Part shown: piece by piece, positions 25,621 to 60,402 of the stretch
Numbering within the stretch: position 1 is the first letter of the stretch
Layout of the letters: each line of letters opens with the position of its first letter
Origin: Owenia fusiformis
Lineage: Eukaryota > Annelida > Polychaeta > Sabellida > Oweniidae
Reading direction: 5' to 3'
Length of the DNA: 64,000 nucleotides
NCBI GenBank assembly: GCA_903813345.2
Contig: CAIIXF020000012.1
Span: forward strand, 6,139,001-6,203,000
Notes under the pieces: model-generated
What the model was told of the DNA's origin: nothing
The model's database searches: none
The model's input: the letters and a program-made list of their open reading frames with translations, nothing else
Made by a program: the position numbers and the translations under genes

Positions 25621-25850
25621 TTATCTGACACAGCATTCCGAACTTTCCTGTATTGATACCCCATCGCACGGATAGCGACCGTGTCTCTTTCGACGGTGAA
25701 CACGTTCCTCATCAACACTTCGGCCTACGGGACATATTGGACAGATCCTTGTTCGCACTTGTCTCCCTGGTATCCTGCATCCGTTAGTACGATACACTCC
25801 CGAGACTTGTTGGCATTTCCAGGGTCCCCACGATTCCCATATGCCACAAC
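25621..25850 (-). CDS. exon 19 of the TSP1 gene: terminal TSP1-like domain with stop
   Basis: Starts in phase 1 after CCTATATTC (acceptor on minus) and ends with TAA at 25621-25623. The domain begins CGIWESWGPWKC and ends SSECCVR. It contains RRKR followed by His, a furin-type dibasic consensus, between two Cys clusters. Exons 9 and 13 share its CDGVSIQ/ECC-like ending. A 230-bp copy about 97% identical lies at 63332-63561. Confidence 0.8.
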
Positions 25851-28800
25851 CTATATTCGAAAGATTATATAATATTTTACATCTTTTAGAGCCAAAACAA
25901 TAAACAAAGAAATGCTATAGACAGTTGGCAATAGTAGGAAACAGTGAACACAGGAATCTAAAGACTAAGAGCTACATTTGTAATGTATAGATTGTTGAGG
26001 TATTTGACCTAGGATTAACTGTAGATGGGGGCGGGGGCGGTCATTACGAACCAATCTATAAATGCCCTCTATTATTGCGTCGTTTGCTACTTTTGTTTTA
26101 CAGTTACATTGGTCTGGTTAACATTAGGGTCTTACTTGGACAATCTCTTATCCTGCACATTTGGGTTCGTGTTTCCTTAGATTCGCCTCTACAACGTAGC
26201 GCTCCATCCCTTCCGAATATCCTAACTCGAGTACGGGTTTGACTCTCCATGCCATTCCCACACGTATTGGAACATCCAGCACCTATCCACCTAGTCCAAT
26301 CACTCCAATTACAGCCTGTGGTTACATATGTATCATTAGTGAGGATATACTCACGCCCGGTGATCGTACAAAATGGATGGAGGGGGGGGGGATTAGGCGA
26401 TTTCTGCAAGAAAACTCAACAAATTTGGAAGATTTATTTTTTCAAGAGAAAATTTACAACTGAATTGCCAAATGAATAGGTGCAGTGCATGGTGAAATAT
26501 GTTAGGTCATTTAATTTTTTTTAACTGATACCCTTCTAAGATATGAGATCTATTAAAAAAGGCGCATCATCACCAACGTGCAAAAGTCAATGTTTTTGCT
26601 ATAAATTGGGCAACAATGGTCTACACGACCTGTAATAAATAGGTATAAGCGACGTTATTATCACAATACTAATGACATTGCTCACGTTCCAGTTTCCATG
26701 CGTCAAACAAAAAATAATCGAAATAAATTAATATTGGATGGAGGGGGGGGGGGGATAATGTGTATATAAGACATGATAAGACATGCTACTTGAATTTATT
26801 CTTATGACTCCAAATTTTCCCATTTTTAATTCCCCAGAGATATAATATCCAGTTTCTTACTGGGGTACTGAGCTTAGTTTTTTTTCTAATACACGAGTTC
26901 TTGTGAATTTGTTCCATCGTAAAGACATATAAATCCCCCCTCCATTCGACCCCCCCTCCATCCAATATTAATTTATTTCGATTATTTTTTGCATAACGCA
27001 TGGAAGCTAACTTTAAAAAGTGAGCAATGTCATTAGTATTGTGATAATAACGTCCCTTATACCTATTTATTACAGGTCGTGTAGACCATTGTTGCCCGAT
27101 TTACAGCAAATTTTTAACTTTATTTTTCAATTATTCTAGTAATTTATCTCACTTAAAAATATATTGTGAAGTTTTAAGCACTTATTTAACACAAATAAAC
27201 CTCTTCAGAACTAAACAGATGCATACAATTATGTCTTAATTAATTCATTTCATCGACTGCGTCATCACTGTTTTGATCAACTGCTATAACTGCCCTTCTA
27301 ATTTGCTCATTGTAGCGGGTTATTTTGGCTTTACAATTCCAAGCTGCATGGTGAATTTAACCTGTGGCGTGTGCATCTACATGACGTACAGTCATTTTCT
27401 CCCGAAGAGCATCCAGCCATCCACATTTAATTGCTGCAAGACTTCTGATGGGACACACTGTAGATCTTCTGGTAAAACTCTTGCAGTAATAATTTCCAAA
27501 GATTTAACTTTTTTCCAACTAAATTCAATTGATTCAAAGGCGGATTGATTGGGACGATCTGTATATTTTTATATTTCCCATAACATTCAAAGTGTGGTTT
27601 AATTCTAAAACCATTAACGTTTTCAACTTTCCAACTCAATATAACTGACCCATTGTATCACTTTGCTTTATGTTTCAGTCAGTGTCACATTCTGTGGATT
27701 CTGATAATCATAACATATTTATGTTTCACCTGTAACATGGTCTCAGACTAATGATGAATCTGAAAATCATAATAACTTTGTTCATTCCACCTAGTTGGTT
27801 GAATATGCTCAAGGCACACCTAATGCTATTGCTATTTTTTAGAGTTGCTGATCTATGATTAAAATTGTATATTCCATGCCTCATTCATTTGTAAGATGTT
27901 TAGCTTAAATGATCATGGTCATCATTGTGCTAGGATCGGATGGTTTCATGTCAGCCAATGGCTAGTACTTTGTTCAGGTGGCAGGCTTCACTGATTCCCT
28001 TTCATTCTAGCGATCTGGTTTAGTAACCTTCATACTTGGGGATTTAATGGCTTAATGTCCTTTTTAGTTGCACTGCCAATATCCCCAATGCATGGGTTGA
28101 CTTTTGTCCATTCCAAAAGGAGATATTTGCATCAAAATTGTCTAAGATTATCTGTATCATCCTAGATACAACAGCAGCAGCCTAGAACTCCAACAGTATA
28201 ACCCCAAGCAATATTTGTAGAGGTAAATTAATGTTGATAACTTAGTTGGTGATTAAGTTCTCTTAGAGGGGAAAGATCACTGGTTTTGTTGTTCAATTGT
28301 TGTACAACTTTTTCACACCTCTATTGAAATGGAATGTTAGTATGGTCAGATTTTCATTCGAATGACATTTCTCGACACATTACACTGTAGTTTAAAAAGC
28401 ATCAGTTTTCTCTGGACATTTTACTCCTAATTCCAGGTTAGGATACAGAGTAATGTTATATAATAACTGTTGTTATAATAACAAAATGTTATTTTGATTT
28501 TGTGATCTATTCATCTATTGTATCACATGATGACTTTATAAATTGAGGTTCATTGAATATATAATTGCACGTGCTTCTATTAAAAATATGTAGTACAGGT
28601 ATTATCTTTTTTACAATTTATTTTCTATTGAAATATTATATAATCAATCACAAACTAGAAATCAGAGCAACTCCACAGATATTGAGACATACATACAGTA
28701 GAGATATATCAGAATTTCCACCGATTTAAGCATCATATGTGTGACCATTCAAGGGTTTGAAAGGCACAGATCATTAAGACAATACTATATTTGAAATCTA

Positions 28801-31800: not shown

Positions 31801-34800
31801 GTATTAACACTCGTTAAAAGTGGGAGTTATTTATAGCGTCCGTTTCCATGGTAACGGCCCGAGTCAAAATTCTATTAAAGCTCAAATTTGCAATGCATGA
31901 TATCAGAGCTTTCTGATGGTACCAATATTTTGCTGGGGGTCAGTAAAATATTAAACTCCCTTATTTTAAGGCTTTGGAGGATTTTCCTACTCGTCTAATA
32001 GTTTTTAATGACTGTTAACATGTTAAAACTTTCAAAAAATGCTCAACATATATGATTTTGCAGATTATTTCACTTTGAAGAGTACATATGTAGCAATAGA
32101 AAAATTCAAGGAAAACTTTATACCTTAAAACGACCCTTAGCCTGTCAGAGGTATTTGGCCACCGGACTATGACAACGGTGAGTTATAGAGGCAAATGTGA
32201 TACCTGGCTTTAACTATGTAGACAGATTTTGAAGTAAACCGGATCAGTAAGTCAACTTACATTGCACCTCACATGGTACTCTCCTACTGCCGGTAGCACT
32301 ACCAGAACAATCGTCTAAAGACCCTTCAGGGTCTGTACCCCATACTTTGCTCCTTGATCGTGTTTGACTCTCCAATCCAGACCCACATGTTACAGAACAT
32401 GAACCAGGGCCCCACTGTCCCCAGTTCGACCACAAACAGGCTATAATATAATAGTATCTTGACAATGGTGTATCTGGGCAAGCTACTGAAAACATGGATA
32501 TATAAGCACAAATGCCAAAGGGAAGGGTGACTAAAAACCTTAAAGAAACCCAACAAGAAAAGCAAACTGTAAGTGTAAATCTTTCATAAGAAAAGTAGAC
32601 CCTATATATCCCAAAACCATGATCTAACGTGAAAAGAAACAATGTCTAACATCCCCCTCCCCCTCTAATCGAGAACCAATATCACAATCCAGGACCAGAA
32701 CACCAAGGGACATTTCATTCATACTGAAGTCATTACAATACATGTTGAAGAAAAATTGAAAAAATTGATAGCCAATACTCATAACATCAAAAATAGTTGT
32801 AGATACTAGTAATCATAAAGTCTCAAATGATGTGGGATAGATAAAATCCAGTCTCGAAGTCCATAGGCAATTCAAAAGGTCAACATCCGTTCACAAAGCC
32901 GTCATCATAATCCATAAAACACAACAATTCACAATGGTCATCAGGGGAAATCTATGGCTGGTTTCGATCCCTATTTGTCAACCATTAATGCCATAGCGGG
33001 ATCCACCTCAAAAGGTGCCAAGTGAAAATATTGTGAGTTCATTGCCAATTTATTATACCATTCCTACATCCTTCAGCATCTCAAGTGGTAAAACTTGAAA
33101 TTTCGAAATTAATGACTTGTACTTTTCAGCAAAGCATAAACCCCATATGCTGGGTTAAGTGGAATATTGCTATCCAAATGTGGAAAGTTAACAATGTCAA
33201 AATTAAAGTCATTAATTTCATGTTCTTCTATATTTATTCATCATTACGTGTATCATTTGTGTGTCACTGTGCATCGATTGATTGAACCCATTTGACATTC
33301 AGCATAACATCTAAGTGCTACATTTTTAATGTATAGATTATTGAGGTATTTGACCTGGGATTAACTTGGGGAGAGGGGCGGTCATTACGAAACAATCTGT
33401 ACATGCCTTCTATTATTGCGTCGTTTGCTACTTTTGTTTTACAGTTGCATTGGTCAAATAAACATTTAGGCCATTTTAGGGTCTTACTTGGGCAATCCCT
33501 TATCTTGCACATTTGGGTTCTTGTTTGTTTGGATTCGCCTCTACAGCGCTGCTCTCCATCTCTTCCGAATATCTTAACTCGAGTTCGGGTTTGACTCTCC
33601 ATGCCATTCCCGCACGTGTTGGAACATTCAGCACCTTTCCACCTGGTCCAATCACTCCAACTACAGCCTGTGGTAACATATGTATCATTAGTGACGATAT
33701 ATGAATCCCAAACCAGTATTATCCAATAAATACCCTTACTAACAGATTCAAAGTATTTGCAAGAGGAGATGCATGTTACAATTATAATCAAATAGAAAAG
33801 AAAAAATTGCTGGGTATCTATTTTTGCTCGATTTTACTTTTGATAACAATCGAAAATCACGCTTTATGGCTACATGTAAACGTTTCTCACTTACATTGTG
33901 GCTCACAAGCTTCTTCCTTGGTTTCCTTCAGGATTTTAAGCACTTCTTTACAAATTTCATCATTTTTTGTTTTTGGCTCATATTTCCGCAGTACTTGTGT
34001 CCGTGTACAAGTTCGTTCACCAATCCCGCATCTACACGTTCCGCATGACCATTCGGACCATTGCTCTTCGGGGCAGTCTAATTAAAGATAATTCGAAAAG
34101 AATTAACACACTCTACTATACCCTGCATTTGGATTATTAGTATTGATTATGTATTTGTTTTTATTTGTCTGTTCCTTATTAATGGTTTATTGGTTGAATG
34201 TTAGATGTTACTAAGGCAGTTTCAAAAATATACTAAACAATACAATTAGACAAACAAAGTATCTTATGCATTTCTAGGTGTTTTGAATAGTAGCGTGTAA
34301 CATTTTCTTGTTGTATACATTCGAGTTTGGGTTGAAACAAGAGCAACCCAAACCGTGAAACTATTTCTCTGAGTAATGTAGCCAACATGCATTATAGAGT
34401 CAGGAACTTTTCGATGCAACGTCATAGAGTGTACATCGCGGCATTAATGCAAATAATACCGAAAGGCGGTCTAGGGAGACATACCACCTTGTGTCCATAC
34501 AGCAAGCTGTTGGAGGGTCTCTCCAATAAATAGGGTCAATATTATTTGAGTCATGACTAACTTATATCGAAACAAAATTCACTGGTGATCCGTTCGATTA
34601 CGCCGGTTACCGAAAAGGTTCGTTTCGGTAACAACGTCGATTTAATTCCTCACTTAAGTTACATAAACGTTAAGTGAGGAATTAATAAACGATTATGTTG
34701 TCTTCTGAACTATTTGTTCGCAAACATGAACATTTTCTTAACATTATGATACTCACACATGTCTAGATACGGCTCTTGACACGCCGCGTGTATAGGCGTT

Positions 34801-46800: not shown

Positions 46801-49800
46801 AACAATGATTATTCAGTGGTCCATGATCGCATATTAACAATTGATATATTATTGGAAAGAAGACACACGTGGCTTTATGGTAAATTGAATGTAGTAACAC
46901 ATAGCTGGTTTTCAATGATACGTATTTTAAACAAGCTCGTTGCGTACATGTAAGATCTTTGAAGCTAAAGCATGTATGACATATCGGAATCAATATTGCC
47001 GGCATAGTATTCCCGTTGACACCAACGTGAAAATGCAAATTTCCCGTTCTAAACACGGAACTCTAAGGCTGAACAGGTATCTTAAGTTGACTAATAAGCG
47101 CTTGTTTTGTATGCGCGCTTTACACATTATACTAAAATGATTCATGTACTTTCCATTCATGGTTACTTTGTGAACAAACATTGCAAACTTAAAGCCTCTT
47201 TTGAGTAAAATACCGGGAAACGGTAAAGCAAAAGATGCCTAGATCTTTAAAAACTCACGCTCTTTATCCACATGTGTAATAAGGTCTACACTAAGCCATG
47301 GATGCCGTTTCGTTTCGTTCGGTACGGATACTAAGCCCTAGGTATTAAATAAACCCTTTGTCTATTCCGTAGACTTTTAAGATAACATAGAAAATAAATG
47401 TTATGTATGCACAAAATCAGAACTTTACTAGTGAATCTCACCTGCTACTCTGCAGCATTGTTCAGATTTATGTTGAATAGATACACCGTCACATTCAGTA
47501 CGATCAATAATCTCTCGTTTGCCGACGACGCAAGAGCAGTCAGTGCAAGTCCTTGTTCGATTGCACGTCCTTTTTCCATACTCAGCACAGGGTTCGGTAA
47601 CGTCACCTCTATTTGTTTGATCATCAGACTCCATACATGAGCTATAGACCCATTCGCTCCATTCAGTCCATTTACACTCTAATGTATCGAATTAATTTTT
47701 ATGACTGAAGATTACTTGAGGGCAGTATCAGATTTAGAAACTTTTGACAATTTAGAAACTCAACAATTTTTATTTGACGTTATTTGACATATCTATTTTA
47801 TATATGGTTCCTAAGAGCGTCGAAGGTCAATGTTAATGTAATTTGTCAAAACTAAATAATATAATGAACTGAGAAGGAATCCCCGATTATGAGTGATGCC
47901 ATCACAAAAATGCGCGAGGTTTATCATCAAAATTGACAATTTTACGTTGATTCACCAGACTGTGGGATATAGCCTACCTTCTAAGAAAGATAATCCAAAT
48001 CTCTTGGCCCCCTAATTCAGGAATTGTGTTAAAAACCCACCCGACTCTTTAATTTCAGAAAGATAAAGATTTTTAAGCGCATTTGGTTCTGTATCTCTAA
48101 ATTTGGATGTATAGAGCTCACTAAAAAATTTCAAAAGGCCTTAGTTAAGGCTTTATGTCCAGTTTCAGAACCCATATTCTTACTTTTGAAAATGGATTCT
48201 ACAAATACGCTCCCACATGAATCTACTTGTTGACTCGATCATTAGTCAATGGTGTATATCCCCATGTAAGTCAATGTGCCCTTGCAGAAAATCTCAAGTT
48301 GATAGAGTCTCAACAAGTAGATTTACGTGGGATCGTATTGTAGAATCCTTCTTCAATAGTAAGAATAGGGGTTCTTAAACCAAATATTGGGGTTGCTTTT
48401 TAAACATTTTTGTTGGCTCTAATATGAACATTTCTTATTTGGGAGAACTTACATTTTACTCTTTGAATCAAAAATAACACCACCATTTAGTAAGATAACA
48501 GGAATCACAATGTATCGAAATATGTTGGAGCTGGGTTCGGGCAATGTTATAATATAGCAAAATTAGATGATTCCATACTTACTTAGGCAGCATTGAGTAT
48601 TGCAAATTTCAATTCTGCTTTGTTCCGAATTTCCTGGACACACGCTTGAACTCCCAATGTTGCTGAATGTTTTAGTTCTTGTCCTGTAGTTAGTAATGTT
48701 GCCACCGCCACAAGTATGGGAACATCCGTCATCACTTCTTGTTGTCCAAGAAGTCCACTGGGACCAATCACAACCTAAAAATCATATAAAAATGAATTAC
48801 TTTTAATATTTCTTGGCTGGAATCTAAGGACAATATCACCGGGAAATCATTAAAAGGTACGTGAGCATTTTTTCTGTCGATGTTTAATGGTTTCGGGAGA
48901 AGATTCCCGGGGATTTAGGATGATTAATGATTGTGAATATCGGCAGAAATTAGGTAAGTTCGGGGGTTTTATTTGTAGCTAATGAAAATAGATGTTAGCC
49001 TTGATGAAATATCCAAACTTCGATATATTCTGACGACAGGTCCATGATCATTGGATACATATCTGCACTATTTACTCAACCTTTAAAAGTCTTCAGCGTT
49101 GTTTTTGAATGAAGGAACAATGTGGAGCTCTACTATTCCGTTATTTTTAAATACATCCCAATAGATCTTTCAAGATGGATAGGCACAGAAGGCTTAATGT
49201 CTAATATTTTTCTGTGAACATTTTTATGATGGATGATGAAGAATAAACGTTTTATTATAAAATTAGGCCTTGCTTTAAATTATTGGCTGACCTGTAGTAT
49301 GCGATCCAGCCTGACATATTGACAAGCCACTGGCCTCAACTATTTATGTCAACACGGATTGTATTCATTGAACTAGTTTAGGGATGAGGAGTATTCTTTT
49401 AATTAATAAGAGCCTTTTGACACCTCGTTCACCATGTTAAATCTCCCAAATATTTTACTTTATATAGAGGAGTAATTTGATAGAGGTCTCCTATCTTCTC
49501 ACTTAAATATAAATTTCACTTTCTATAGAATTTGAACACTAGGGGAAAACAGAGGTTGTCCATTTACATATGATGAATATCCATTTAGCAGATGTTATAA
49601 TAAATAACTGGAAATAAAGTTAAGAGAGGAAAACTTGAATCCCATTGCGGCCAGTCAAAGTAAAAAATCTAAATGTAATGTTTCGTCCAATCATTTGTGT
49701 TAGAACTGTACCGTGCAAAATACAACTTTTGTCTTTCACACTGTAACTGCACTCTGCAATTTTTTTTTATCACAAACGTGTATCAGTATCATATGTTTAA

Positions 49801-52800
49801 CACATATACAAATAACGAATGGCTATAGACACCCCTGGGGTCACTTAACATTTTTTGAAAAATGCAATGTCGTTAATATCCTAGATATGTAGGATCAAAT
49901 TGTAGATAAATATGTATATGTTCAAGAAATAGCAATAAAAAGCATTTAAGATTACTGATATAAGTATATTTTGGTTGATTTGGGAGGTATGTATCACTTC
50001 CTGTGAAAATGTGAATTTTTTATCAGTCTCAGAAAATGTCTTCAGAATGTAAAAACCCAACTTGGCAGATGTCCCGTGTCACTCTATACACTCATTGGAT
50101 TAATATTTTGTACATATAAATAGTCATATTTCAATAGTCATTGAGTAGGGATTAGTTATGTTTGCAATTTTGTTGACCTACTTCTTTTTAGATAGAGGAA
50201 GGTCATGATAAACTCTTGTTTTGTTCATATAACGCTTGGTTCTTACCTAGAAAGTTATATGTATTGAGGGAATAGTGTACTTCTAAGGTACTTCCTGAGA
50301 TATGTAAAAATCTAGGTAAGGACCAAGCGTTGTTCAAAAATGGAACTTTTCTGCAATTTTCAGCATGAAATAAAACGATGTCAGCCATTTTGTACCCCCT
50401 GTATGGAGACAAGAGGGTTACATCTAAATCATAGTACACTTTCTTGAGATCAAGCCAACCAATTTAAACGATGAACAGATGACCATCTTCAAGTAGATGG
50501 GAAATATACCATCATTGTTAAAAAAGATACATTTGGCCTAATTTGTGTAAAAGTCCAGTAATCGGTTTGTGTCCTCTAAAGCTCATTAAACATGGGTGGA
50601 GTATAACCCAGGTCCAGATGTATGTAATAGTATTGATGCAATCACTGGATGATGTTGTACATGCCTTGTTGGGAGTAGGGTTACCGAATTTTCCAACCGG
50701 AACCGTAGCCATCTTGTTACCGAAACGGAAATAGCGTAATCGAATGCAGTACCAGTGTTTCAAGAAGACAGTAATACATGAATATATGATCAAATACCCA
50801 TTTCATACACTCGAGACTTACATTGTTGCGTATTACAATCCGTTCTTCTATCCTCAACAGAGACACCTGGACATTCTTTATTTCGGAACATTTCACTGAA
50901 CTGTTCTTCTCGTGTCCGCTTTTCGGCTCTACTTCCAGTCCCACATAACTTAGAGCAAGGTCCACCCGACCAGGAACTCCATTTTGACCACATACAGCCT
51001 AGGCCTACATTTGTAAAAATGAAAAATTTCACTTCGAAATTCTCAAAACGATATTTCTTATGACAATTTTGGTATATTATATTTTCTTGTCGATGACTCT
51101 CCTGAATTGTGACTTTCCTGAAATAATACTTTGATTTTCATTCAGGCTTTATAGCAGTCGATTGTGAAATCAAATTATTGTGTATAAATAAACCGTATGG
51201 ATACTGCAAATTTTAAAGACAAATAATTTAAAGCTGAACGCAGCAGTATAAAATGTCAGAGTATTCTTATTCCAAAGTAATTTGAATTTTTGATTACTTA
51301 GCTGTCCCCCAAAAATGAACTGTTTTAACACCAAATAACTATTTAAAACTCTAAGGTATTTTAATTCATGTACAATATTGAAGACTATCCATATTATTGT
51401 TTTGAAATTATAAACTAATGGTACTCCAAGGGGAGATAATCCCCTAACAGGAAGTTTTATAACCCAAAAATTGTTGCATACCATCAACACAAATCATTTT
51501 TGCATTTTTCTGCTCAATCCATTTCGTATCTCCCATTAATTCTCCGCTTGATGCAGAAGAAGGACTGCTTTGAGCTCCATTTTTAATGGCGATGATATTT
51601 GAACGAGCAGAATAAAAATCCGAATCAATCACCCATCTGCCCGTTCTTGCAGTAGACATTACAAAGTATAAGTTGTAGTCTGAGACACCCTGTTTCGTAT
51701 AACTAGGCATATTGGCAACGGTCTTGTTATTGTTCTGATATATGCCATTCATTGAGGACACCTCAATACCAGATACTTGTATACGTCTACAACCTTTAAT
51801 AAAATATCATGCAAGGGGGATTTATGAAATACAGAAAATATTTTTTCCAGGAAAGATGTTTCAAGATGCAAGGACAAAATATTTTCAATACTTCACCAGA
51901 ACTCATTGCATATCTAACTCATTATTCTAAGATATCTGATACGTATATAAATAATTGGCCAAAAATATGATCAAGATCCGAAGTTACTTTTCATATCATG
52001 ATATCATTAACAGGGTGTCCAAAAGTTGTGTATATATAAGCGCAAATGCCAAAGGGAAGGGTGACTAAAAAACTTTTAAGAAACCCAACAAGAAAAGCAA
52101 ACTGTAAGTGTAAATCTGTCATTAGAAAAGTAGACCCTATATATTCCAAAACCATGATCTAACGTGAAAATAGATTGTAAATTGTAAATAGAGTGATAAG
52201 TGTCAACTATTTTTATATTTACATAATATCATATCGTAAGTAAATATAACGATTTTTGACACTTGATTACTCTACACAATCGTTTGATTATTTATTGCAA
52301 AATGATTTGTGATACTCCCTAGATCTGCTTGTTGTGAATCAATAGACAAATAACGATACGTTTTGGATGTATATAATATTATAATATATTTATTAAATTC
52401 ACAAGTTTGGTGTATGGGTGGTACTTTTAATCGTCCAAAGTGTTATTAATAATTCTAGTACAAATAATAAATATAATGTTCATGTGTACTATTAAATCAA
52501 TAAAAACTTAAGTAATACGTAATTTTATACTGGCAATTGTAGAAGGACATGCGTTCTACCGAAGCATCAGTTGAAAACTGAGGTATGCATGTACACTGTA
52601 TAACCCCGGTGAATAGGAGTGTCTACCGGGAACTGTCAATCAAACATTACATATTCATACAATATGTCACAGACGGTCGCCCCACAAAACTTTTAGATAA
52701 TTTAGTTTGCATTGTTTCGAATTATTATTTAAATCCAGACCCAGAGTTCAATACATCCGTACATGTTAGTGTTAAAAAAGCAATATGACCTGTAATATAT

Positions 52801-55800
52801 TTTTGATTGTTTAGAGAATTTTCGTCAAGAAACGTTTGGAAACAACAATTAAAACGAAGTTTGTCCGCATTTGTTTTGGTTGTTCTGCCGTGAAAGCAAT
52901 GGGATTCTCTCATCTGCATATCACTTGACCTTGTGCCATGCCATAGACTGTTGTGGGGATTTTCGAAGCAGTGTGACACTGAGTAGCCGAAAACACACCG
53001 CCACTCCAATTACATTTTCCTGTTTATTCTCTTTGGCTGCGTTTTTGAACTGCCCGCGGTGCAAGTATATTGCATAACTTTTAATAAGTTTTCCCCCGAA
53101 GTATCATGAAAAAGAACAATGAACAGTGTTGCAAATTACATGCTCACACGTTTTCAACAAAAACAGCTAATCCAAGCGCACTTAGACCGCTAATTACGCC
53201 GTGGCTACCTTGTCAACTAACCCCGTGTGTCAACCGCTTCGCCTTGTTGCTAGTGCACCACAGGAGTTCCAATGCAATGAACCGTAATGCTTTTCTAAAG
53301 AATTGTGTGAGTGTAGGTGCGCTTGGATGAACTGTTTTTGTTGAAAACGTGCGACCATATTAATCGCACCGCAGTGCCTATTGATCTTTTTTGTAATACT
53401 CGGGGAGATAATTCATTTAAATATTACGCAATTGACTTGCGCCGCGGACATTCAAAAACGCAGTCTCAGTATAAACCCTTATTTACATACCACACATTAA
53501 GTTAATCTATTATGTCGCCGGGTTATGTAGCTAATGACGTGGACCGATTGCAATGATATTGAGGAAAATAACAAAAAAACGGTGAGGAAAAAGGTGCCTA
53601 AATCTTTGAAAACCCACCCCCCTTTGTCCACAAATGTAATAAGGTCTATACTAAGCCCCGAATTTCGTTTCATTTCGTTCAGTACATATTCTAAGCCCTA
53701 GGTATTAAGTAAACCCTATCTATTCAATAGACTCTTCAGATAACATAAACCAATGTTGTAGAGTTGAATGAACAGTCGTACCATCATTCTTAGTCCTGAT
53801 AGAAAAATAAATGTTATGTAAGCACAAAATCAGAACTTTACTTGTGAATCTCACCTGCTACTCTGCAGCATTGTTCAGATTTATGTTGAATAGATGCACC
53901 GATACATTCAGTACGGTCAATTATCTCTCGTTTGTTGACGCAAGAGCAGTCAGTACAAGTCCTTGTTCGATTGCACGTCCTAATACCATACTCAGCACAG
54001 GGCTCGGTAACGTTACCTCTATCTGTTTGATCATCAGACTCCATACATGAGCTATAGACCCATTCGCTCCATTCAGTCCATTTACACTCTAATGTATCGA
54101 ATTAATTTATATGACTGAAGATCACTTGAGGGCAGTATCAGATTTGGAAACTTTTGACAATTTAGAAACTTGACAATTTTCATTTGACATTCTTTGTTAT
54201 ATCTGTTTTATATAAATTTCAAGGTTCCTAAGTGTGTCAAAGGTCAATGAGAGTTGCAATTCTAGGATTCAATAGCTGTTTTTCTTGCACTTGCGAGCAA
54301 CTGGAAGTTTGTCTTCGTTTCAACATGGAATTAATAACAAAATGGATGAATTTCCGTTGGAGGAAGTATTCATTTTCATCATTTTCACAAAGAAGGAAGT
54401 CAATTCGCATCCAAATATTTTACCCGTATGTTGATAGTAGCATCCAGTTACTGAAAAACTAGTCAGTCATATCTCAAAACTTACGCAAGTGATAAAATCA
54501 AGAACACATTTTTTATCAAATTTTTCATGGACTCTCCATCCTCCTTTCTAGCCCTTTCTTTGGATTGCATTGCTATGTCCCGTGATCCTAATATGTGAAT
54601 ATTACATTATTGTAATTTGCCAAAACGAAAAATGAATTGAACTGTGAAGGAATCCCAGATTTTGTGTGATGTCATTACAAAAATGCACGAGGTTTATCAT
54701 CTTAAAATAAATTCCCAACTCAAATTGACAATTCTACGTTGATTCAACGGACTAGGGGATATATCCCACCTTCCCAGAAAGGTAACCAAAATCTTCTCGA
54801 CCCCCCTAATTCAGGAATTGTGTAAGAAACCTATCCTACTCTTGCTAAGTGGCTTTAATTCCAGAAATATAACTGATTTTTAAGCATATTTGGTTCTTTA
54901 TCTTTAAATGTGGATATAGAGCTAACCCCAAAAATCAAAAAGGCCTTAGTTAAGCTTTAATGTCCTGTTTCAATAGTAAGAATAGGGGTCCTTGAACAAT
55001 ATATTGGGCTTGCTTTTTAGAACTTTTTTGTTGGCTCTCATTTAAATATTTCTTATTTTGGAGAACTTGAACTTTGCTCTTTGAACTCAAAATAACGTCA
55101 CCATTTAGTAAGATAGCATGAATCACAATGGATCGAAATATGTCGGAGCTGGGTTCGGGCAATGTAATAAAATAGCAAAAATTAGATAATTCCATACTTA
55201 CTTAGGCAGCATTGAGTATTGCAATTTTCTGTTCTGCTTTGTTCCGAATTTCCCGGACACACGCTTGAACTCCCGATGTTGCTGAATGTTTTAATTCTTG
55301 TTCTGTAATTAGTAATTTTACCACCGCCACAAGTATGGGAACATTTGTCACCACTTCTTGTTGTCCAAGAAGTCCATTGGGACCACTCACAACCTAAAAA
55401 GCGTATAAAAATGAATAACTTTATCATATTTCTTGATCAGGTCTATTACAGGGTGTCAAATAAGTCCCGTCCCCCCTGCTACAGCTAAAACCTTAATAGA
55501 TGGTACCTAGTGTGATATACCATTGGAAAGATTATCCAAAGTTACGTTAACTCACCAACTCTCAAGTATTTTGGATGAAATTTACCTATATTTTTATGAT
55601 GTGCTTTATGGCTAACGTACCCTCCTTTAGGCAGCTTTTTGCGTCAAAATTACAAGGATATGACCTCGGAAATACATAAAAAAGTTAATCTTTTTCGCAT
55701 TCCAATTGTTACAAAAAGGTTTTCACCACTTTCCTTGCACCTCTATTTTCTACATATCTAACCTTATCCAGAAATTGGTTAAATTCATTGTCATATACAT

Positions 55801-58800
55801 GTTTAATCAACTTTTGGTCCTTTGACCTTTCTTATATCTGATTCTTAAAATCCTGCCAAATACGCCAAATTGCCATGTTTCTAGGCATATGGTCTCCTCA
55901 ATTGATACAATGTAAAAATTTGTGAGATTGATTAACAGGTGTCAGATATATGCCAATCAACGTTACTTTGGAAGACCTTTCCAATGGTATATTACACTTG
56001 GTACTAAATATCTTGGTTTTGGCTGTAGAGGGGGGACGGGACTTATTTGACACCGTGTATATCATTTTCTGGTACAGGCGATCAAATTCATATTGCACCA
56101 ATAATAATGACTCAACTTCTGACCCAAATATAGCGTCTGTGTGCGTTACAACATATTCTATTTAATTAGATGAAACTTACATAGACCAGTATTACAGGTC
56201 TCCGGTCGTTTTTGTTCCGATTTTCCTGGGCACGATGCTGAATTTCCCACAGCGCCATATATCATTGTTCTTGTCCTGTACTTATCTATGGAACCAACAC
56301 CACAGTTTGCAGAGCATTGTTCCCCAAATCCACCATTTCTTGGCCTCCATCTACTCCATTGGGACCACTCACAGCCTAAAACAATAGATAACCAATCATT
56401 TCCTTCGATAGATATTTGCATTAATACAAAACTATATCAGCTTTAATAACAAAATGATCCAAAGAGCTACATACTAGGACAATTAAGACAAAGCCATCAT
56501 TGTCATACAATTCTCACGATCCAATATATTACCGTCTAAAAGATTTTGTTACATTTGACTACAGACTTCTTATGATAATGCAACTGAGCTTAATTTATTG
56601 CTATCAGAATGCTCAATACAATAAACACTTCCTTGATCATTAATACCTAACATCGAATTTTATATATGGCATTATACCATGCGGGTAGTATAGTCTTGAC
56701 CAAACTGAGCGTTGAGCTTTTCTAAATAACTAAAAACTTACATGGCCCAGCATCACAGGTCTCTGTTTGTTGTTGTTCTGAATCTCCTGGACATGTTGCT
56801 GAATTTCCCCCAGAACCAAATATTTTTGTTCTTGTCCGATACTTATCTATGGAACCAACTCCACAGTTTCCTAAGCACTGACTCCCTGAACCACCATTTC
56901 TAGTCAACCACAGACTCCACTGGGACCACTGACAACCTAAGAAAAAGGTAACAGGATTGCATGTTTTCTGATACAGACTGCCAACCATGATTCGCACCAG
57001 TTATATCAATTACATATATCCAAATATACGACATTATTTGGAATCGAATTAAAAATTTAAAAAGCTTATATATGAACTCTTTTATGATATTTGTGTCCCT
57101 TTGCAATATCGATTAAAATTCATCACTGGATTTTGTGTAAAAGATAAATTTTAAAATGTCCCGCAGGATACGATATAAACTGTATGACTCGTAAGATGAA
57201 CGAAGTAGCGATGTTACTGCTTCATAACCTTATGTTATGTTTCCGATAGGGGCCTCTTAATAACTGGCCATTTATATCGACAAAGAACTACACAATAGCA
57301 AGTTACAATTACTACAATTTATTGTTCAGTATTAAACTCAAATAACCTACAAAAAAATGTTTGGCACAGGGAATACATCCACCACGGCATTAGCTATACG
57401 AAACCGTTTGCGAGGTGAAGACAATATAATTTCTCCTTGTGATAGGCCAAAGTATACACTATAAGTTATATAATGAATATATAAGATATAATGAACAATA
57501 TAAAAGGTTAACGTATACTCCAGAACTTATATATACTACAAGGAGAACTTATACAGTACTATAAGGAGAACTTATATATACTATAAGGAAAACTTATGTA
57601 TAATATAAGAATATGTATTATACAATAAAACATCAGCTCTCAAACTATATGAAGTTATGTTAAAAATCTTTGGGGTAAGCACAAAAATAAAATGCCTTAT
57701 AGGTATTTATATTCCCCCATATAATGAATAACAGGGGTAAATGTGGATGTCATTGCGGCCATTCAAAAATTAAAAATCTAAATACAGAATGATCTAATTC
57801 AATCGACTTACATTGTTGTATGATACAAGCCGTTCTTCTATCCTCAACAGAGACACCTAGGCATTTTTCATTGGGGTACGTGTTATTGTATTCTTCCTTT
57901 CGTGTCCGCTGCTCGGCCCTACTTCCAGTCCCACATAACTTCGAGCAAGGTCCACCCGACCAGGAACTCCATTCTGACCATTCACAGCCTACATTTGTGC
58001 AAAGCAATACAGTATTTTGGTAAATTCAACCTGCAGATATCTAAGTTGGTGCACGTACATAGGCAGCAACGATCGCGGCTTTTAATACCCTTTTATCAAA
58101 ATATTATTGATTATTGATTTATTTGCCTGTCATATTTTTGTTTTTTATTAAGACTTTTCAGATTTGGACATGAACCTTCTTTCTGATTCTATTTTTCTAG
58201 TGAATCAAAGTTTCACTGAATCATCTTGTAATTCATGAAATGGTACTTTCACAATCAATTCAGACTCGGACACGAACCTTCTACTGATCCTAGTTTGAAA
58301 AATCCATATTCTAGTAAACGGTACAACTACGTACCCTTTCCAATTTTAAAAGGTCATCCTTATAAAATTTCTTGAGGAGTATGTGATGTCCCCGAAATGT
58401 ATGTACTGTGTGTAATATGCATATGTAAGGAGTGATGAGGTGATAAAACGGTGTATAATTTTTGACCTCCATGTATATTTCCATTCGTTAAACTCAACCT
58501 CCTAGTCGTGAAACACATCTGTGAAACGCAACCGAATAACTTTGGATAAACCCATAATCTCGTTATATATGTGTACCAAGTATCAATTATGCTTCCTTAA
58601 AAGATACTAACCTAGAGGGTCGGGTCTTATGGTTCTTGGAATACATCTGCAAGCTTGAAGTGAAAATTCTTCTCTCTTTTTACATTCTTTAAGGAGTTCA
58701 ACTTTGCCATTGACATGCTGGCACAGAAACGTTCTGCCCTCCCTAGGCACATGCCATATAGCATTTATACAGCATTTAGTAGGCGGATCGCCATATTCAG

Positions 58801-60402
58801 GATCATCCAGAGGGGGACACACAGCTACAATGAATGCATTGGGATGCATATGCTATCTAAATGACATTATTTTGAGAAACATTCACACCATACCATGTTA
58901 TGAAGCAATGGGATAGTGTCTCCATAGGCTATATGATATATACAAAGAATTCACATTGACTTTATATCATGCAGGACCAGGGAGATCATTTTTAAGATTA
59001 AAAATCCAAAACGTTATCAAATAATATTATATATTTACCCGGTTTTATTTGACACCTTTTAAAGCAAGGGAAAAGTTCAAACTTCTTCAACCCCAGTGGA
59101 CTATCATCTAAACATACTTTCCAGCAGACTTCATCAACAACATATCCCTGTTTATCAAATTATCAAAGCAGTAAAAACAGTAAATATACTATGTTTTATG
59201 AATACGTACACAGTAAGTAGAGCATTATTCATCACACTGGGGAAAATCATGGTATTTTGTTCTCAAAACATAACGCATACAAATGGGATGAGCCATTGGT
59301 ATGAATTAAAGTCTCTGTCAATGCATTAGATATGAGCATTTGGTATAATTTGCAATAAAAAATTTTTATCCCCAAAACAGCAATATGTTGCAAACGAAAT
59401 GCCTCTGTCCCAAATGAATTTGTGATTCAATAATTTTTTCATCGGTTCATTTAATTTTCAAGCTAGAAAACAAAATTCCAATGAGAATTTAACATTAATT
59501 TCTCATTGGAATTTTATATTCTAGCTTTAAATATTAAATCAACTGAAGAAAAAATTATTGAATCACAAATTTATTTGGGACAGAGGCATTCTGTTTGCAA
59601 CATATTGCTGTTTTGTGGATACATTTTTAAATAAATTTTTTATTGCAAATTATAGCAAAAATGCTCATTTCTAATGCATTGACATAGACTTGATTTTTTG
59701 GGGGATTTTACGATTCACTACTTGCTGCAATCAACCTCACTATAAGCATATCAGCCAGGACCCGTTTTCAATCAAACTTGAACTAACTATCACTCTGCTG
59801 ATATCCTTCAAAAATCAAATTGTCCCGATTTCCAAGACCTTATTGTTACCATGGCAACCATGAAAATGAAAGCAAATATGAGGGTAAAATAACCAAATCT
59901 ACCATGAAAGCGCATTTTTAAACATTTTTAAACATCAAACGTTGATATCATCTATTTAAAAGCTCCTTGACAACAAAAAATTAAAAGAAATTATGGCAGG
60001 TTAATCAATGTGATTTTTGCTAGGCCTATAGCCAAAGTGAAACTGTGAAAAGGGTTTCCAACTGAACTTCTCGCCTACCTTCTTGATTCTACAGTTATTT
60101 GCACAGTTGACCAAAGAAAATTGTTGACATAGTTTCATGCATGGCGCGTATGTTGCTCCTTTATTTTTTCCTTTTTTGCCACACGATACTGAAATATAAT
60201 AGATTATGTATCTCAAACATTTCCAAGTATGGGATTAACTTTCTTGGTTATTGCAATATTTCTAACTATTAACATATATCATATCGATATGTTTATCCAA
60301 AAAGTTATACATGAACAAGTATTGGAATCCACATTATAAAACTTACTTACCCGTAAGTATCACGGCAAAGAAGATCAACACGAAGTAGCCGTCTGGTCGC
60401 AT
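25621..60402 (-). CDS. large secreted multi-TSP1 protein with novel Cys-rich modules, at least 19 exons
   Basis: Minus-strand gene assembled from 19 exons listed individually below; the summed coding length divides by three and gives about 1182 or 1205 residues, depending on the end of exon 14. Order: signal peptide, two Cys-rich modules, CPP module, TSP1 x4, TSP1-like, NGxY module, TSP1 x2, TSP1-like, CPP module, TSP1 x4, terminal TSP1-like exon with stop. Exons 4-18 begin and end in phase 1, so each is a self-contained module. TSP1 domains bind glycans and extracellular partners and carry Trp C-mannosylation (WxxW) and Ser/Thr fucosylation (CxxTCG) sites, several of which are visible. No membrane segment is seen, so the product is probably secreted. 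I recognise no orthologue. It could be two merged tandem genes, but no second start or signal peptide was found. Confidence 0.75.
26136..26315 (-). CDS. exon 18 of the TSP1 gene: TSP1 domain
   Basis: 180 bp, phase 1-1. Reads CNWSDWTRW, then CSNTCGNGMESQTRTRV, ending CRIRDCP. WSDW fits C-mannosylation and CSNTCG fits the fucosylation consensus CxxTCG. It is a near copy of exon 16 (33488-33667), including flanking intron sequence. Confidence 0.85.
26592..27115. mobile_element. foldback element in the intron between exons 17 and 18
   Basis: Arms of about 160 bp share GGGCAACAATGGTCTACACG, CAATGTCATTAGTATTGTGA and ATTAATTTATTTCGATTATT in inverted orientation. The inner edges are G-rich (GGATGGAGGGGGGG). 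No coding region; outer ends are blurred, so no target duplication is claimed. Confidence 0.65.
27116..29940. other. intron sequence, no exon seen
   Basis: Part of the 5.8 kb intron between exons 17 and 18 of the TSP1 gene. Short diffuse AT-rich repeats only (for example CAGCCATTTT near 28863 and 29003). No TSP1-like frame or strong splice pair was found on either strand. Confidence 0.5.
29950..30650. mobile_element. foldback element of about 700 bp
   Basis: The left arm (about 29960-30200) and right arm (about 30425-30640) are inverted copies sharing GGATTTTGGCTATT, AAGTGAAGATGCAAACAA and CCTCCAGGAAAAGCACTC-type blocks. Open frames inside it are chance results of the inverted arms. It lies in the exon 17/18 intron. 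Confidence 0.65.
31220..31770. repeat. two diverged direct repeats of about 150 bp
   Basis: The blocks at about 31230-31390 and 31645-31790 share ATGACGTCACAAT, AGCTAATTTGCATAA-type and CTTTCATTTGATACC motifs in the same orientation and order. They are diverged copies of an interspersed repeat in an intron. Confidence 0.55.
32261..32440 (-). CDS. exon 17 of the TSP1 gene: TSP1 domain
   Basis: 180 bp, phase 1-1. Begins CLWSNWGQWGPGSC, then SVTCGSGLESQTRSR, ending PCEVQC across the next splice. Has the fucosylation consensus CSVTCG and WSNW. The donor is CAAT|GTAAGT on the minus strand. Confidence 0.85.
33488..33667 (-). CDS. exon 16 of the TSP1 gene: TSP1 domain
   Basis: 180 bp, phase 1-1. 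Reads CSWSDWTRWKGAECSNTCG, then QTRTRVKIFGRDG and CKIRDCP. It is nearly identical in layout and sequence to exon 18, and the similarity continues into the flanking intron (TTATTGCGTCGTTTGCTACT in both), so the pair arose by duplication of a whole segment. Confidence 0.85.
33895..34077 (-). CDS. exon 15 of the TSP1 gene: divergent TSP1 domain
   Basis: 183 bp, phase 1-1. Begins DCPEEQWSEWSCGTCRCG, then ERTCTRTQV and a charged middle region rich in Lys/Glu, ending ACEPQC across the splice. The Trp pair is kept but the central CSxTCG is replaced by a CxxCxCG arrangement, so it is a separate subtype. Confidence 0.8.
34423..34550 (-). pseudogene. decayed CPP-module exon in the exon 14/15 intron
   Basis: One minus-strand frame reads DPIYWRDPPTACCMDTRWYV and, further on, LMPRC. 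These match the core of exon 14 (DPQYGGTPPTACC, WYVPL, VLMKC) and exon 4 (DPEYGDPPTKCC, WHVP). The leading Cys-Pro-Pro is missing, about eight residues are lost in the middle, and the frame meets a TGA before any CRC end. No good splice sites flank it. It is best read as a dead copy of the module. Confidence 0.65.
34600..36221. other. intron sequence with small palindromes
   Basis: No exon found. It contains a palindrome TAATTCCTCACTTAA...TAAGTGAGGAATTA at about 34643-34684, degenerate GACACGCC/GACACCTC repeats at 34775-34870, and an inverted repeat (CACAATATACAGGTA and its complement) at about 35720-35855. Confidence 0.5.
36222..39820. repeat. higher-order satellite array, about 2.7 kb of repeats split by a mariner
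   Basis: The basic unit is 21 bp, CAAGGCAGCATTCTCAAACTA, repeated one to four times. These runs are set in a larger unit of about 85-185 bp that also carries CAAGGCGGCACTTGCAAACTA, TAATGTAACTCATATATAG, TGTTCTAAGCATAAATTGAA and CAAGGCAGAGTTGTATAACC. About 22 larger units are visible. The array lies in the 11.6 kb intron between exons 14 and 15 of the TSP1 gene. It is a satellite, not a CRISPR array: there are no unique spacers. Confidence 0.9.
37451..38306 (+). mobile_element. decayed Tc1/mariner element inserted in the satellite
   Basis: The ends are TCGGGTGTCCCAAAAAAAAC and the inverted copy ending GGGACACCCGA, flanked by TA, which interrupts the satellite word ACTCATATATAGTG. Inverted arms reach about 240 bp. 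Between them, 37678-37929 holds a transposase fragment with KKIIFTDEKDFSHE, the IFTDE block around the second catalytic Asp of mariner enzymes. A frameshift follows, then VVWKKRLYLV and an early stop. The enzyme core is far too short to work. Confidence 0.8.
39821..40736. other. intron sequence, nothing recognised
   Basis: AT-rich spacer between the satellite and the next inverted-repeat element, in the exon 14/15 intron. No exon or bounded repeat found. Confidence 0.45.
40737..42097. mobile_element. 1.36 kb element with inverted ends
   Basis: The left end ATTCACCTTTCCCCAAAGTC is mirrored by GACTTTGGGGAAAGGTGAAT on the right. An inner inverted pair is GACGTCAGAGTAGGGCA... against ...TGCCCTGCTTTGACGTCA. 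Open frames inside are short and unrecognised, so it is probably nonautonomous. No clear target duplication was identified. Confidence 0.55.
42150..42430. repeat. degenerate G-rich tandem repeat
   Basis: Loose repeats of about 55 bp contain TTTAACATGGG / TTTTAACGAGGG and GGGGTAGG(T/C)(A/C)CC(C/T)-type words. Strand-biased G-rich sequence in the exon 14/15 intron. Confidence 0.45.
44132..44411. repeat. tandem dimer of about 140 bp
   Basis: Two adjacent copies (about 44132-44273 and 44274-44411) share TTTAAAATAATACTG, CATTTTGAGCAGTTTTCGTG and CAAATATCAAATGTGACC, starting at TTAGCCCCC and ending CACCCCTGGAATAA. Confidence 0.75.
44822..45317. mobile_element. GC-rich Harbinger-like MITE with TAA duplication
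   Basis: Perfect terminal inverted repeats of 27 bp begin TGGCCTAGTCACATAGCCCG and are flanked by TAA on both sides (44819-44821, 45318-45320). A 3-bp TWA duplication is the usual mark of PIF/Harbinger elements. The interior is unusually GC-rich for this window, with many overlapping GCTCGGTG / GGCCGGTGTCCGGCC palindromes. No coding capacity. Confidence 0.8.
45749..45949 (-). CDS. exon 14 of the TSP1 gene: second CPP Cys-rich module
   Basis: Begins in phase 1 with CPPKGDPQYGGTPPTACC, then GGKWYVPLGGREY, VLMKC and KCRCMVG. It matches exon 4 in Cys order (C, CC, C, CxC) and in the DPxYG, PPT and W(Y/H)VP blocks. Two donors keep phase 1: one after 45749 (GACG|GTACAC), which gives a domain end like that of exon 4, and one after 45680 (CAAG|GTGGGC), which adds 23 residues. 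I prefer the first. Confidence 0.75.
46154..46950. mobile_element. diverged inverted-repeat element (mariner-like end)
   Basis: Arms at about 46154-46320 and 46785-46950 are inverted copies sharing TTTACCAT(G/A)AAGCCAC and GTGGTCC(A/C)-type blocks. The left end CAGTATGTCTCAAAAAGAAC resembles mariner-type termini. No transposase was found; ends are approximate. It lies in the intron between exons 13 and 14. Confidence 0.5.
47442..47678 (-). CDS. exon 13 of the TSP1 gene: TSP1-like domain
   Basis: 237 bp, phase 1-1. Begins KCKWTEWSEWVYSSC, then TCNRTRTCTDCSC and ends ECDGVSIQHKSEQCCRVA. It is a near copy of exon 9. Its Cys-rich end matches the terminal exon. Reading past the donor meets a stop after four codons (47428-47430), so intron retention would make a shortened protein. 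Confidence 0.85.
48583..48774 (-). CDS. exon 12 of the TSP1 gene: TSP1 domain
   Basis: 192 bp, phase 1-1. Reads CDWSQWTSWTTRS, CSHTCGGGNITNYRTRT, CPGNSEQSR and ends CNTQCCL. CSHTCG fits the fucosylation consensus. It is a near copy of exon 8, and the copy extends into introns on both sides. Confidence 0.85.
   Translation of the reverse strand, partial: VVIGPSGLLGQQEVMTDVPILVAVATLLTTGQELKHSATLGVQACVQEIRNKAELKFAILNAA
48775..50821. other. intron between exons 11 and 12
   Basis: No exon seen. A hairpin built from ATAACGCTTGGTTCTTACCTAG and its inverted copy lies at about 50225-50340. The rest is AT-rich. Confidence 0.5.
50822..50998 (-). CDS. exon 11 of the TSP1 gene: TSP1 domain
   Basis: 177 bp, phase 1-1. 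Reads CMWSKWSSWSGGPCSKLCG, then GSRAEKRTREEQ and ends DCNTQQC across the splice. It is a near copy of exon 5. The acceptor is doubled: TAG occurs 6 bp apart, so the exon may start at 50998 or 51004, the longer form adding Gly-Leu. CSKLCG lacks the Ser/Thr needed for fucosylation. Confidence 0.85.
51482..51793 (-). CDS. exon 10 of the TSP1 gene: NGxY/W module, not TSP1
   Basis: 312 bp, phase 1-1, about 104 residues. It begins CRRIQVSGIEVSSMNGIY, then MPSYTKQGVSDYNLYFV, TGRWVIDSDF, SSPSSAS and GDTKWIEQ, ending ICVD. The spacing (VSG, NGxY, PxY, LYF, GRWVI, P, W) recalls a domain of unknown function found in many invertebrate and protist proteins, usually written NGxY...P.Y...L.Y...W.I. It is the only module of its kind here and splits the first TSP1 block from the second. 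Ligand unknown. Confidence 0.7.
53030..53470. mobile_element. foldback MITE in the exon 9/10 intron
   Basis: Arms are inverted copies: GCGTTTTTGAACTGCCCGCG and CACGTTTTCAACAAAAACAG on the left match the reverse complements GCGTTTTTGAATGTCCGCGG and CACGTTTTCAACAAAAACAG on the right. About 440 bp in all. No coding frame is meaningful here. Confidence 0.65.
53855..54088 (-). CDS. exon 9 of the TSP1 gene: TSP1-like domain
   Basis: 234 bp, phase 1-1, one codon shorter than exon 13. Reads KCKWTEWSEWVYSSC, TCNRTRTCTDCSC and EQCCRVA. The extracellular Cys pattern with a CC near the end differs from ordinary TSP1 and links it to exons 13 and 19. Retention of the next intron would stop translation after five codons (53838-53840). 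Confidence 0.85.
55202..55393 (-). CDS. exon 8 of the TSP1 gene: TSP1 domain
   Basis: 192 bp, phase 1-1. Reads CEWSQWTSWTTRSGDKC, SHTCGGGKITNYRTR and ends CNTQCCL. It has WSQW and CSHTCG modification sites. It is duplicated as exon 12. Confidence 0.85.
   Translation of the reverse strand, partial: VVSGPNGLLGQQEVVTNVPILVAVVKLLITEQELKHSATSGVQACVREIRNKAEQKIAILNAA
55449..56057. mobile_element. mariner-like MITE with TA duplication
   Basis: The left end CAGGGTGTCAAATAAGTCCC and the right end GGGACTTATTTGACACCGTG are inverted copies about 30 bp long, flanked by TA. It is 609 bp, with no transposase, in the intron between exons 7 and 8. Confidence 0.75.
56181..56375 (-). CDS. exon 7 of the TSP1 gene: TSP1 domain
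   Basis: 195 bp, phase 1-1. Reads CEWSQWSRWRPRNGG, QCSANCGVGSIDKYRTRT, CPGKSEQ and ends CNTGLC. It pairs with exon 6, which has the same length and the same CGVGSIDKYRTRT block. CSANCG lacks the fucosylation Ser/Thr. Confidence 0.85.
56742..56936 (-). CDS. exon 6 of the TSP1 gene: TSP1 domain
   Basis: 195 bp, phase 1-1. Reads CQWSQWSLWLTRNGG, QCLGNCGVGSIDKYRTRT, CPGDSEQQQ and ends CDAGPC. It is a sister of exon 7 by tandem exon duplication. Confidence 0.85.
57520..57615. repeat. short tandem repeat of ATATAAGGAGAACTT type
   Basis: Three to four imperfect copies of a 24-30 bp unit (ACTATAAGGAGAACTTATAT) lie in the intron between exons 5 and 6. Confidence 0.6.
57812..57988 (-). CDS. exon 5 of the TSP1 gene: first TSP1 domain
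   Basis: 177 bp, phase 1-1. Reads CEWSEWSSWSGGPCSKLCG, GSRAEQRTRKEE, GVSVEDRRTAC and ends QQC across the splice. It was duplicated to give exon 11. The acceptor is TGTAG directly before GCTGTGAATGG. Confidence 0.85.
58612..58824 (-). CDS. exon 4 of the TSP1 gene: first CPP Cys-rich module
   Basis: 213 bp, phase 1-1. Reads VCPPLDDPEYGDPPTKCC, then AIWHVPREGRTFLC, LLKEC and ACRCIPRTIRPDP. Cys pattern: C, CC, C, C, CxC. No known domain is recognised. The same module returns as exon 14 and as a dead copy at 34423-34550, so it is a true unit of exon duplication. Confidence 0.8.
59039..59147 (-). CDS. exon 3 of the TSP1 gene: small Cys-rich segment
   Basis: 109 bp, phase 0 to 1. Reads GYVVDEVCWKVCLDD...FPCFKRCQIKP with four Cys in a CxxxC / CxxxC layout. 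With exon 2 it forms a Cys-rich N-terminal region of unknown fold. Confidence 0.7.
59305..59695. mobile_element. near-perfect 390-bp hairpin in intron 2 of the TSP1 gene
   Basis: Arms of about 180 bp begin AAGTCTCTGTCAATGCATTA and share ACAGCAATATGTTGCAAACG and TTGTGATTCAATAATTTTTTC with their inverted copies; the loop is under 20 bp. It is a foldback element and would form a long stem in the pre-mRNA. Confidence 0.8.
60079..60188 (-). CDS. exon 2 of the TSP1 gene: small Cys-rich segment
   Basis: 110 bp, phase 1 to 0. Reads SCGKKGKNKGATYAPC, then MKLCQQFSLVNCANNCRIKK, with five Cys. The donor is AAG|GTAGGC on the minus strand. It follows the signal peptide directly, so it is the mature N-terminus. 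Confidence 0.75.
60351..60402 (-). CDS. exon 1 of the TSP1 gene: start codon and signal peptide
   Basis: Start codon at 60402-60400. MRPDGYFVLIFFAVILT is a short charged start plus a hydrophobic core, a typical signal peptide. It ends in phase 1 at a perfect donor, G|GTAAGTAAG. No earlier in-frame start with a better leader was seen. Confidence 0.8.

Follow-up and report, generated by a model that had tools for sequence, protein, structure and literature searches.

A tandem family of TSP1-type modular genes in Owenia fusiformis: whole-exon copying, loss and exchange, with split-cysteine junctions

Gene structure at the locus

The window is the whole stretch of 64,000 nucleotides that was analyzed (C12:6139001-6203000, C12 being contig CAIIXF020000012.1 of the Owenia fusiformis assembly GCA_903813345.2). 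The genome searched comprises 498.26 Mb in 525 contigs. The window contains a gene, g1, on the minus strand from 60402 to 25621, with 19 exons (Table 1). Upon splicing, these give 3,549 bases in one open frame, coding for 1,182 residues, with a single stop at the end. The product has an N-terminal signal peptide, 116 cysteines and 25 WxxW motifs, and no membrane stretch was seen by eye after the signal peptide. The modules are, in order, the signal peptide, N1, N2, CPP1, Ta, Te, Tf, Tg, Th, NGxY, Tj, Tk, Tl, CPP2, Tn, To, Tp, Tq and Tr.

GT donors and AG acceptors are present at all 18 introns of the joined model. Seventeen are phase 1, and the remaining one, at the N1/N2 junction, is phase 0. 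With equal chances for the three phases, at least 17 phase-1 introns among 18 would have a probability of about 1e-7. Fifteen consecutive internal exons, from CPP1 (58824) to Tq (26136), are phase 1-1 and hold one module each (two CPP, twelve TSP1-like and one NGxY). Class 1-1 is the usual phase of shuffled extracellular modules, as described in the excerpted text of PMC8001218, so the run in g1 is not special in itself.

Splice sites were chosen by consensus scores (from a generic matrix) together with alignment with the paralogs described below. By this matrix, 14 of the 18 acceptors of g1 are weak, scoring below zero. The automatic splice scorer assigns phase 1 to both ends of 14 of the 15 run exons. 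The exception is CPP2, for which the donor at 45749 was set by hand, aligned to that of the paralog g2; the other good donor is also phase 1. For Tj, an alternative acceptor is possible at 51004, 6 nt upstream. An upstream acceptor for Tp, at 32485, is disfavored because the added stretch contains a stop in a g2 copy.

The original prediction, made from the sequence of the window, had described a single modular gene with these outer limits, and both are correct: the ATG of the signal peptide is at 60402, and the stop-bearing terminal exon ends at 25621. Its fifteen one-domain exons of phase 1-1 are borne out, and the limits that it gave for CPP1 and NGxY are exact. Its exon list included all fifteen exons of the run and overlooked the two exons of the N-module.

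Table 1. Exons of g1 and associated features (positions in the window)
Feature	Position	Strand	Remark
Exon 1, signal peptide MRPDGYFVLIFFAVILT, phase-1 donor	60351..60402	-	similar start exon in all five genes
Exon 2, N-module part 1 (N1), Cys-rich, phase 1-0	60079..60188	-	not in original prediction
Exon 3, N-module part 2 (N2), phase 0-1	59039..59147	-	not in original prediction
Exon 4, CPP module 1 (CPP1), phase 1-1	58612..58824	-	
Exon 5, TSP1 Ta, phase 1-1, Cys codon split	57812..57988	-	
Exon 6, TSP1-like Te, phase 1-1, Cys codon split	56742..56936	-	type with 22 copies in g2
Exon 7, TSP1-like Tf, phase 1-1, Cys codon split	56181..56375	-	sister of Te
Exon 8, TSP1-like Tg, phase 1-1	55202..55393	-	
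Exon 9, divergent TSP1-like Th, phase 1-1	53855..54088	-	first bases AG
Exon 10, NGxY module, phase 1-1	51482..51793	-	
Exon 11, TSP1 Tj, phase 1-1, Cys codon split	50822..50998	-	Ta duplicate
Exon 12, TSP1-like Tk, phase 1-1	48583..48774	-	Tg duplicate
Exon 13, TSP1-like Tl, phase 1-1	47442..47678	-	Th duplicate
Exon 14, CPP module 2 (CPP2), phase 1-1	45749..45949	-	donor by homology to g2; alternative 45680
CPP fragment in 11.7-kb intron	34469..34540	-	recognizable in its first half only; stops close its short frame
Exon 15, divergent TSP1-like Tn, phase 1-1, Cys codon split	33895..34077	-	
Exon 16, TSP1 To, phase 1-1	33488..33667	-	
Exon 17, TSP1 Tp, phase 1-1, Cys codon split	32261..32440	-	
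Exon 18, TSP1 Tq, phase 1-1	26136..26315	-	To duplicate
Exon 19, terminal TSP1-like Tr and stop codon	25621..25850	-	
Last exon of neighboring paralog g2, outside g1	63335..63561	-	

Elsewhere in the window, a GMC oxidoreductase gene (glucose dehydrogenase-like) has exons on the plus strand at 18022-23393. A 389-residue single open frame at 13884-15050 is without a significant Pfam match and carries a hydrophobic stretch at its N-terminus. At 10954-11724, a 39-bp tandem repeat lies in an open frame, just ahead of an EF-hand coding region.

Modules

The whole g1 protein was scanned against Pfam-A. TSP_1 matches in five stretches (E 8.4e-8, 32.7 bits vs a curated cut-off of 21.6) and is the sole match over a curated cut-off; at E<=0.1, the only other match is TSP1_spondin, which is sub-threshold. 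The N-module has no match at E<=0.1. When scanned singly, Th, Tn and Tr (the latter as the g2 copy) have no TSP_1 match at E<=1. That g1 is simply an ortholog of one of the named TSR proteins (properdin, thrombospondin, an ADAMTS-like protein, SCO-spondin, hemicentin or rhamnospondin) is very improbable. That TSP_1 is the one family above its cut-off fits such an assignment, but nothing else beyond the sub-threshold TSP1_spondin is found at E<=0.1, and three module types of the protein are not TSRs.

Close-set TSP_1 matches also occur elsewhere in the genome (for example at C1:22.90, C1:24.25 and C11:2.24 Mb), and the general kind of gene is therefore ordinary. In this search, the best 150 of 1,008 candidates were scored; all 150 were over the cut-off, and none of them lies in the C12 cluster. 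What makes the locus worth following are the unplaced modules, the contrast between paralogs and the junction rule described below.

Genome-wide, at least 27 NGxY and at least 38 CPP matches were found at E<=0.01, those of the window included. Alignments were built from 17 NGxY and 18 CPP members, in each case from 16 of 20 further places plus the one NGxY and the two CPP of the window; four near copies were left out of each. Nine columns of NGxY are invariant (C1, S7, G16, Y31, Y42, W53, A62, P77 and C101), and seven of CPP are conserved (C2, P13, C17, C18, C47, C58 and C60). Among the 17 NGxY and 18 CPP members, Pfam-A gave no significant match; the best E values, each from one member, are 0.061 for NGxY and 0.054 for CPP. 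A profile search of the PDB gave a best E of 1.2 for NGxY and nothing up to E 10 for CPP. That neither module could be placed in a family, as originally stated, thus agrees with the profile searches, which found no relative by sequence in Pfam-A or the PDB. Structure prediction gave a mean pLDDT of 35.9 for NGxY folded alone. For the two CPP copies of the window, the mean pLDDT is 58.7, and the best Foldseek match in the PDB has an E of 1.6. From its cysteine pattern, CPP had been considered by eye as a Peritrophin-A-like (CBM14) chitin-binding module; this candidate was rejected, being without Pfam or PDB support. NG-Y-like modules are probably present in other animals. For prokaryotes, one scan of genome contigs with a single protein, which detects close relatives only, gave 36 pattern matches to NGxY and no relatives among them. 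Together with their in-genome relatives, CPP, NGxY and the N-module are described here as three types of extracellular module that have no significant match in Pfam-A, each of them present in multiple copies in this genome.

Two other arrangements of these modules were observed. At C7:17439500-17443500, a copy of NGxY is followed, within a single open frame, by a Thr-rich mucin-like stretch, and another, divergent frame of the NG type lies upstream; this copy speaks for the interpretation preferred below. At C3:9273500-9277500, CPP is arranged differently, as three tandem short CPP-type frames.

The tandem cluster

The gene is one of at least five paralogs on C12 between 6.16 and 6.50 Mb. It is followed by the tandem paralogs g2 to g4, with g5 about 180 kb further on. 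On the minus strand, start exons are located at about 6199.4, 6243.3, 6276.0 and 6303.0 kb, and terminal exons at 6164.6, 6202.3, 6246.1 and 6280.7 kb. On the plus strand, there is a start exon at about 6480.2 kb and a terminal exon at 6502.2 kb. The five terminal exons are all the matches of the genome search at E<=0.001. The N-module matches fall between start and terminal exons along C12. Each of the five genes is preceded by a similar signal exon (MRPDGYF..., MRPDAYF..., MRPGGYF..., MRPGGSF... and MRSQDKL...). The genes g2 to g5 were annotated by homology, with profiles of the window modules, on C12:6203001-6305000 and C12:6479501-6503500. In the five genes, the scorer finds both ends in phase 1 for 95 of 103 module exons, four fragment rows having been removed beforehand. 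Further CPP and TSP-like matches occur between 6.34 and 6.48 Mb, and more genes of the cluster are therefore likely.

The longest intron of g1 (11,671 nt, from CPP2 at 45749 to Tn at 34077) could be taken as the boundary between two genes. It is nearly twice as long as the next (5,945 nt) and contains a minisatellite. This model is rejected and is, in our estimate, extremely improbable, since along C12 heads and tails occur in one-to-one alternation, and CPP2 and Tn are continuous in the paralogs, within about 0.1-0.6 kb of each other in g2 to g5 vs 11.7 kb in g1. Frame and phase also match across the intron in g1. The view of the locus as one modular gene, with one open frame and a signal peptide, is thus retained.

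The minisatellite of this intron (window 36260-39880) has a 21-bp unit and higher-order repeats of about 85-212 bp. A transposase had been suspected by eye at 37.7-38.0 kb and was dismissed, as there is no Pfam match at E<=0.01. About 2.1 kb of the same intron (window 42481-44632) are 94% identical to intron DNA of g3 (C12, about 6.258 Mb), perhaps as a dispersed repeat. A separate segment of 2.4 kb is 97.6% identical between introns of g2 and g4.

Exon copying, loss and exchange

The original prediction that exons are copied and lost is confirmed, most strikingly for the Te type, which has 22 copies in g2 and two in g1, and for a TSPh-CPP repeat in g5. Within g1, four pairs are duplicates by nucleotide identity (Ta/Tj 0.83, Tg/Tk 0.92, Th/Tl 0.94 and To/Tq 0.89). 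The 22 Te copies of g2 are consecutive, separated by introns of about 113-164 nt, and all are open and flanked by AG and GT. The copy number is as assembled and could reflect assembly error. A genome search with Te, in which the best 150 of 227 candidates were scored, gave 49 matches at E<=1e-6. Those with an identity of at least 72% number 24 and belong to g1 (2) and g2 (22); the next is at 60%, and no copy above 60% is found in g3 or g4. In g5, TSPh and CPP alternate, six of each, and another TSP exon is repeated three times. By profile annotation, no NGxY is seen in g3 and g4, which have two CPP in the head. Compared with the CPP fragment in the long intron of g1, those that precede the CPP2 position in g3 (E 0.0035) and g4 (E 0.0065) are shorter and weaker.

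Mean identity in the Te array is 0.852 for exons vs 0.675 for introns. For array exons 10-19, the means are 0.958 for exons and 0.909 for introns, with seven distinct proteins among the ten. Units 2-4 resemble units 7-9 by eye, as though units had been copied in blocks. There is some diversity in the array, since 19 of the 22 modules are distinct at the protein level, and invariant columns make up only 27 out of 65.

Eleven modules were compared between g1 and g2, and their dS values form a mosaic. Three are low (Tr 0.06, Th 0.09 and NGxY 0.13), while the other eight range from 0.49 to 1.26. For Tr, the similarity stops no more than about 20 bases beyond the exon on either side. For Th, it stops 8 bases from the 5' side but on the 3' side continues in the intron for about 580 bases. 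A longer stretch around NGxY aligns at 75% between g1 and g2. The low dS of these exons and the similarity ending near the edges of Tr and the 5' edge of Th point to recent exchange or conversion between neighbors. In this family, entire exons of phase 1-1 are copied, lost and exchanged again between a head and a tail that the genes have in common, and this takes place under purifying selection.

Split-cysteine junctions

In six exons of g1 (Ta, Te, Tf, Tj, Tn and Tp), the intron splits a Cys codon after its T. Because the donor is placed inside the last Cys codon, the exon that follows a T-ended exon must start with GT or GC if the Cys is to be kept. This is the case for all T-ended exons called in four of the genes (6/6 in g1, 26/26 in g2, 3/3 in g3 and 4/4 in g4), a total of 39 of 39, which takes in the 22 related Te exons of g2 and one weak donor of g4. 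In g5, four T-ended exons were called automatically, and only one of them fits the rule; in the remaining three, the donor is more likely a G-ended phase-1 site lying 6 nt downstream.

Split-Cys junctions restrict which exons can adjoin. Th and Tl start with AG and CPP2 starts with GA, so that any of them placed after a T-ended exon would create TAG or TGA. When g1 is treated as 18 units (N1 and N2 joined), there are 136 contiguous skips. Eleven of these give an in-frame stop, among them the single skips of Tg and of Tk; another 9 lose a split Cys, and the remaining 116 have neither effect. The original statement that exons can be copied, lost or skipped in any combination thus fails for 20 of the 136 contiguous skips. 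The split-Cys junction is a simple and testable limit on phase-symmetric shuffling and skipping.

Selection and interpretation

Averaged over sites, selection on the repeated modules is purifying. The 22 Te exons of g2 have a mean dN of 0.089 and a mean dS of 0.587 (dN/dS 0.15), and dN exceeds dS in none of the 230 usable pairs (231 in total). Between g1 and g2, dN/dS is 0.34 over the eleven modules (682 codons). NGxY has the highest value among these, 0.63, and its nearly invariant Trp is lost in the g1 copy. Taken together, this could mean a relaxed or changed function of NGxY.

The lost Trp and the CPP fragment in the long intron might be read as signs that g1 is a decaying copy that is no longer translated. 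We regard this as most improbable: the 19 exons are without a stop or frame break, AG and GT are in place at 18 of 18 introns, and the dN/dS vs g2 is that of a gene under constraint (0.34).

The original prediction had further suggested, as an inference, that such a gene could give rise to numerous isoforms, in the manner of variable recognition proteins. On this reading, alternative splicing of the symmetric exons would supply isoforms for the variable recognition of microbes, as in Dscam or other diversified immune proteins. Phase symmetry preserves the frame in every skip, and 116 of 136 contiguous skips are free of a stop or Cys loss. The family is expanded and swaps exons, and the 22 array modules include 19 that are distinct as proteins. 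In cnidarians, a role of TSR proteins in recognition or defense has been proposed, according to the excerpts of PMC5446238 and PMC4820225. We nevertheless consider this role unlikely. Variable recognition is not favored because selection is purifying (dN/dS 0.15 and 0.34), array exons 10-19 of g2 average 95.8% identity with seven distinct proteins of ten, and a single skip of Tg or Tk leads to a stop.

We think it probable that g1 is a single gene for a secreted-type, disulfide-rich modular animal protein, which would be spliced constitutively and would serve as a long multivalent extracellular scaffold rather than as a source of variable recognition isoforms. A signal peptide and a Cys-rich N-module are followed by CPP, four TSP1-like modules, one divergent TSP1-like module and NGxY, then by a partial repeat of the TSP block, CPP and a TSP1-like tail. 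All modules of g1 would be spliced in constitutively. The product may be a scaffold of matrix, mucus, tube or surface coat, and its length and avidity may vary with exon copy number.

A further reading, which we offer tentatively and would not yet favor, is that the cluster is a live exon-shuffling system. Genes would build differing runaway arrays and trade exons by conversion or unequal exchange, subject to the grammar of split-Cys junctions. Individuals might then differ in exon number and, as a result, in the length of a secreted multivalent protein.

Comparison with known systems

In a literature search, the gene family was not named among the matches listed, which does not show that it is unpublished. 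Several TSR proteins are defined by extra domains: EGF and TSP3/TSP-C in thrombospondins, a metalloprotease or spacer in ADAMTS(L), VWD/TIL/CTCK in SCO-spondin and Ig/VWA in hemicentin. These are absent from g1 (Pfam-A, E<=0.1). As a member of the TSP1 (TSR) superfamily (PF00090), g1 is typical in its five TSP_1 stretches above the cut-off and its 25 WxxW motifs, but it differs in modules of the Th, Tn and Tr type, which are without a TSP_1 match on their own (E<=1).

Properdin-like TSR-only proteins are numerous in cnidarians, according to the excerpted part of PMC5446238. The g1 product shares with them the signal peptide and the many TSRs but is not TSR-only, as it also has the N-module, CPP and NGxY. 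Rhamnospondin of Hydractinia and Hydra is described, in the excerpt of PMC4820225, as a secreted multi-TSR protein from a gene family, with a proposed immune role. While g1 likewise belongs to a family of secreted-type multi-TSR proteins, it is without a rhamnose-binding lectin domain (no match at E<=0.1, Pfam-A).

The tandem exon arrays of Dscam, as far as the excerpt of PMC1397879 describes them, resemble the long run of similar exons in g2. The exons of the g2 array differ in being under purifying selection (dN/dS 0.15) and self-compatible. As to their diversification, the picture is mixed: 19 of the 22 are distinct as proteins and 27 of 65 columns invariant, but exons 10-19 average 95.8% identity.

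In organization, g1 resembles the class 1-1 exon-shuffled proteins of PMC8001218, with one module per exon, phase 1-1 and exon duplication. To this it adds the split-Cys junction rule, which the excerpted text of that paper does not mention. As a rule, the shuffling of class 1-1 modules is deduced from ancient events. In the present cluster, single-exon copying, loss and exchange, some of it recent, can be seen among five close paralogs, so that the process is datable and its constraints can be measured.
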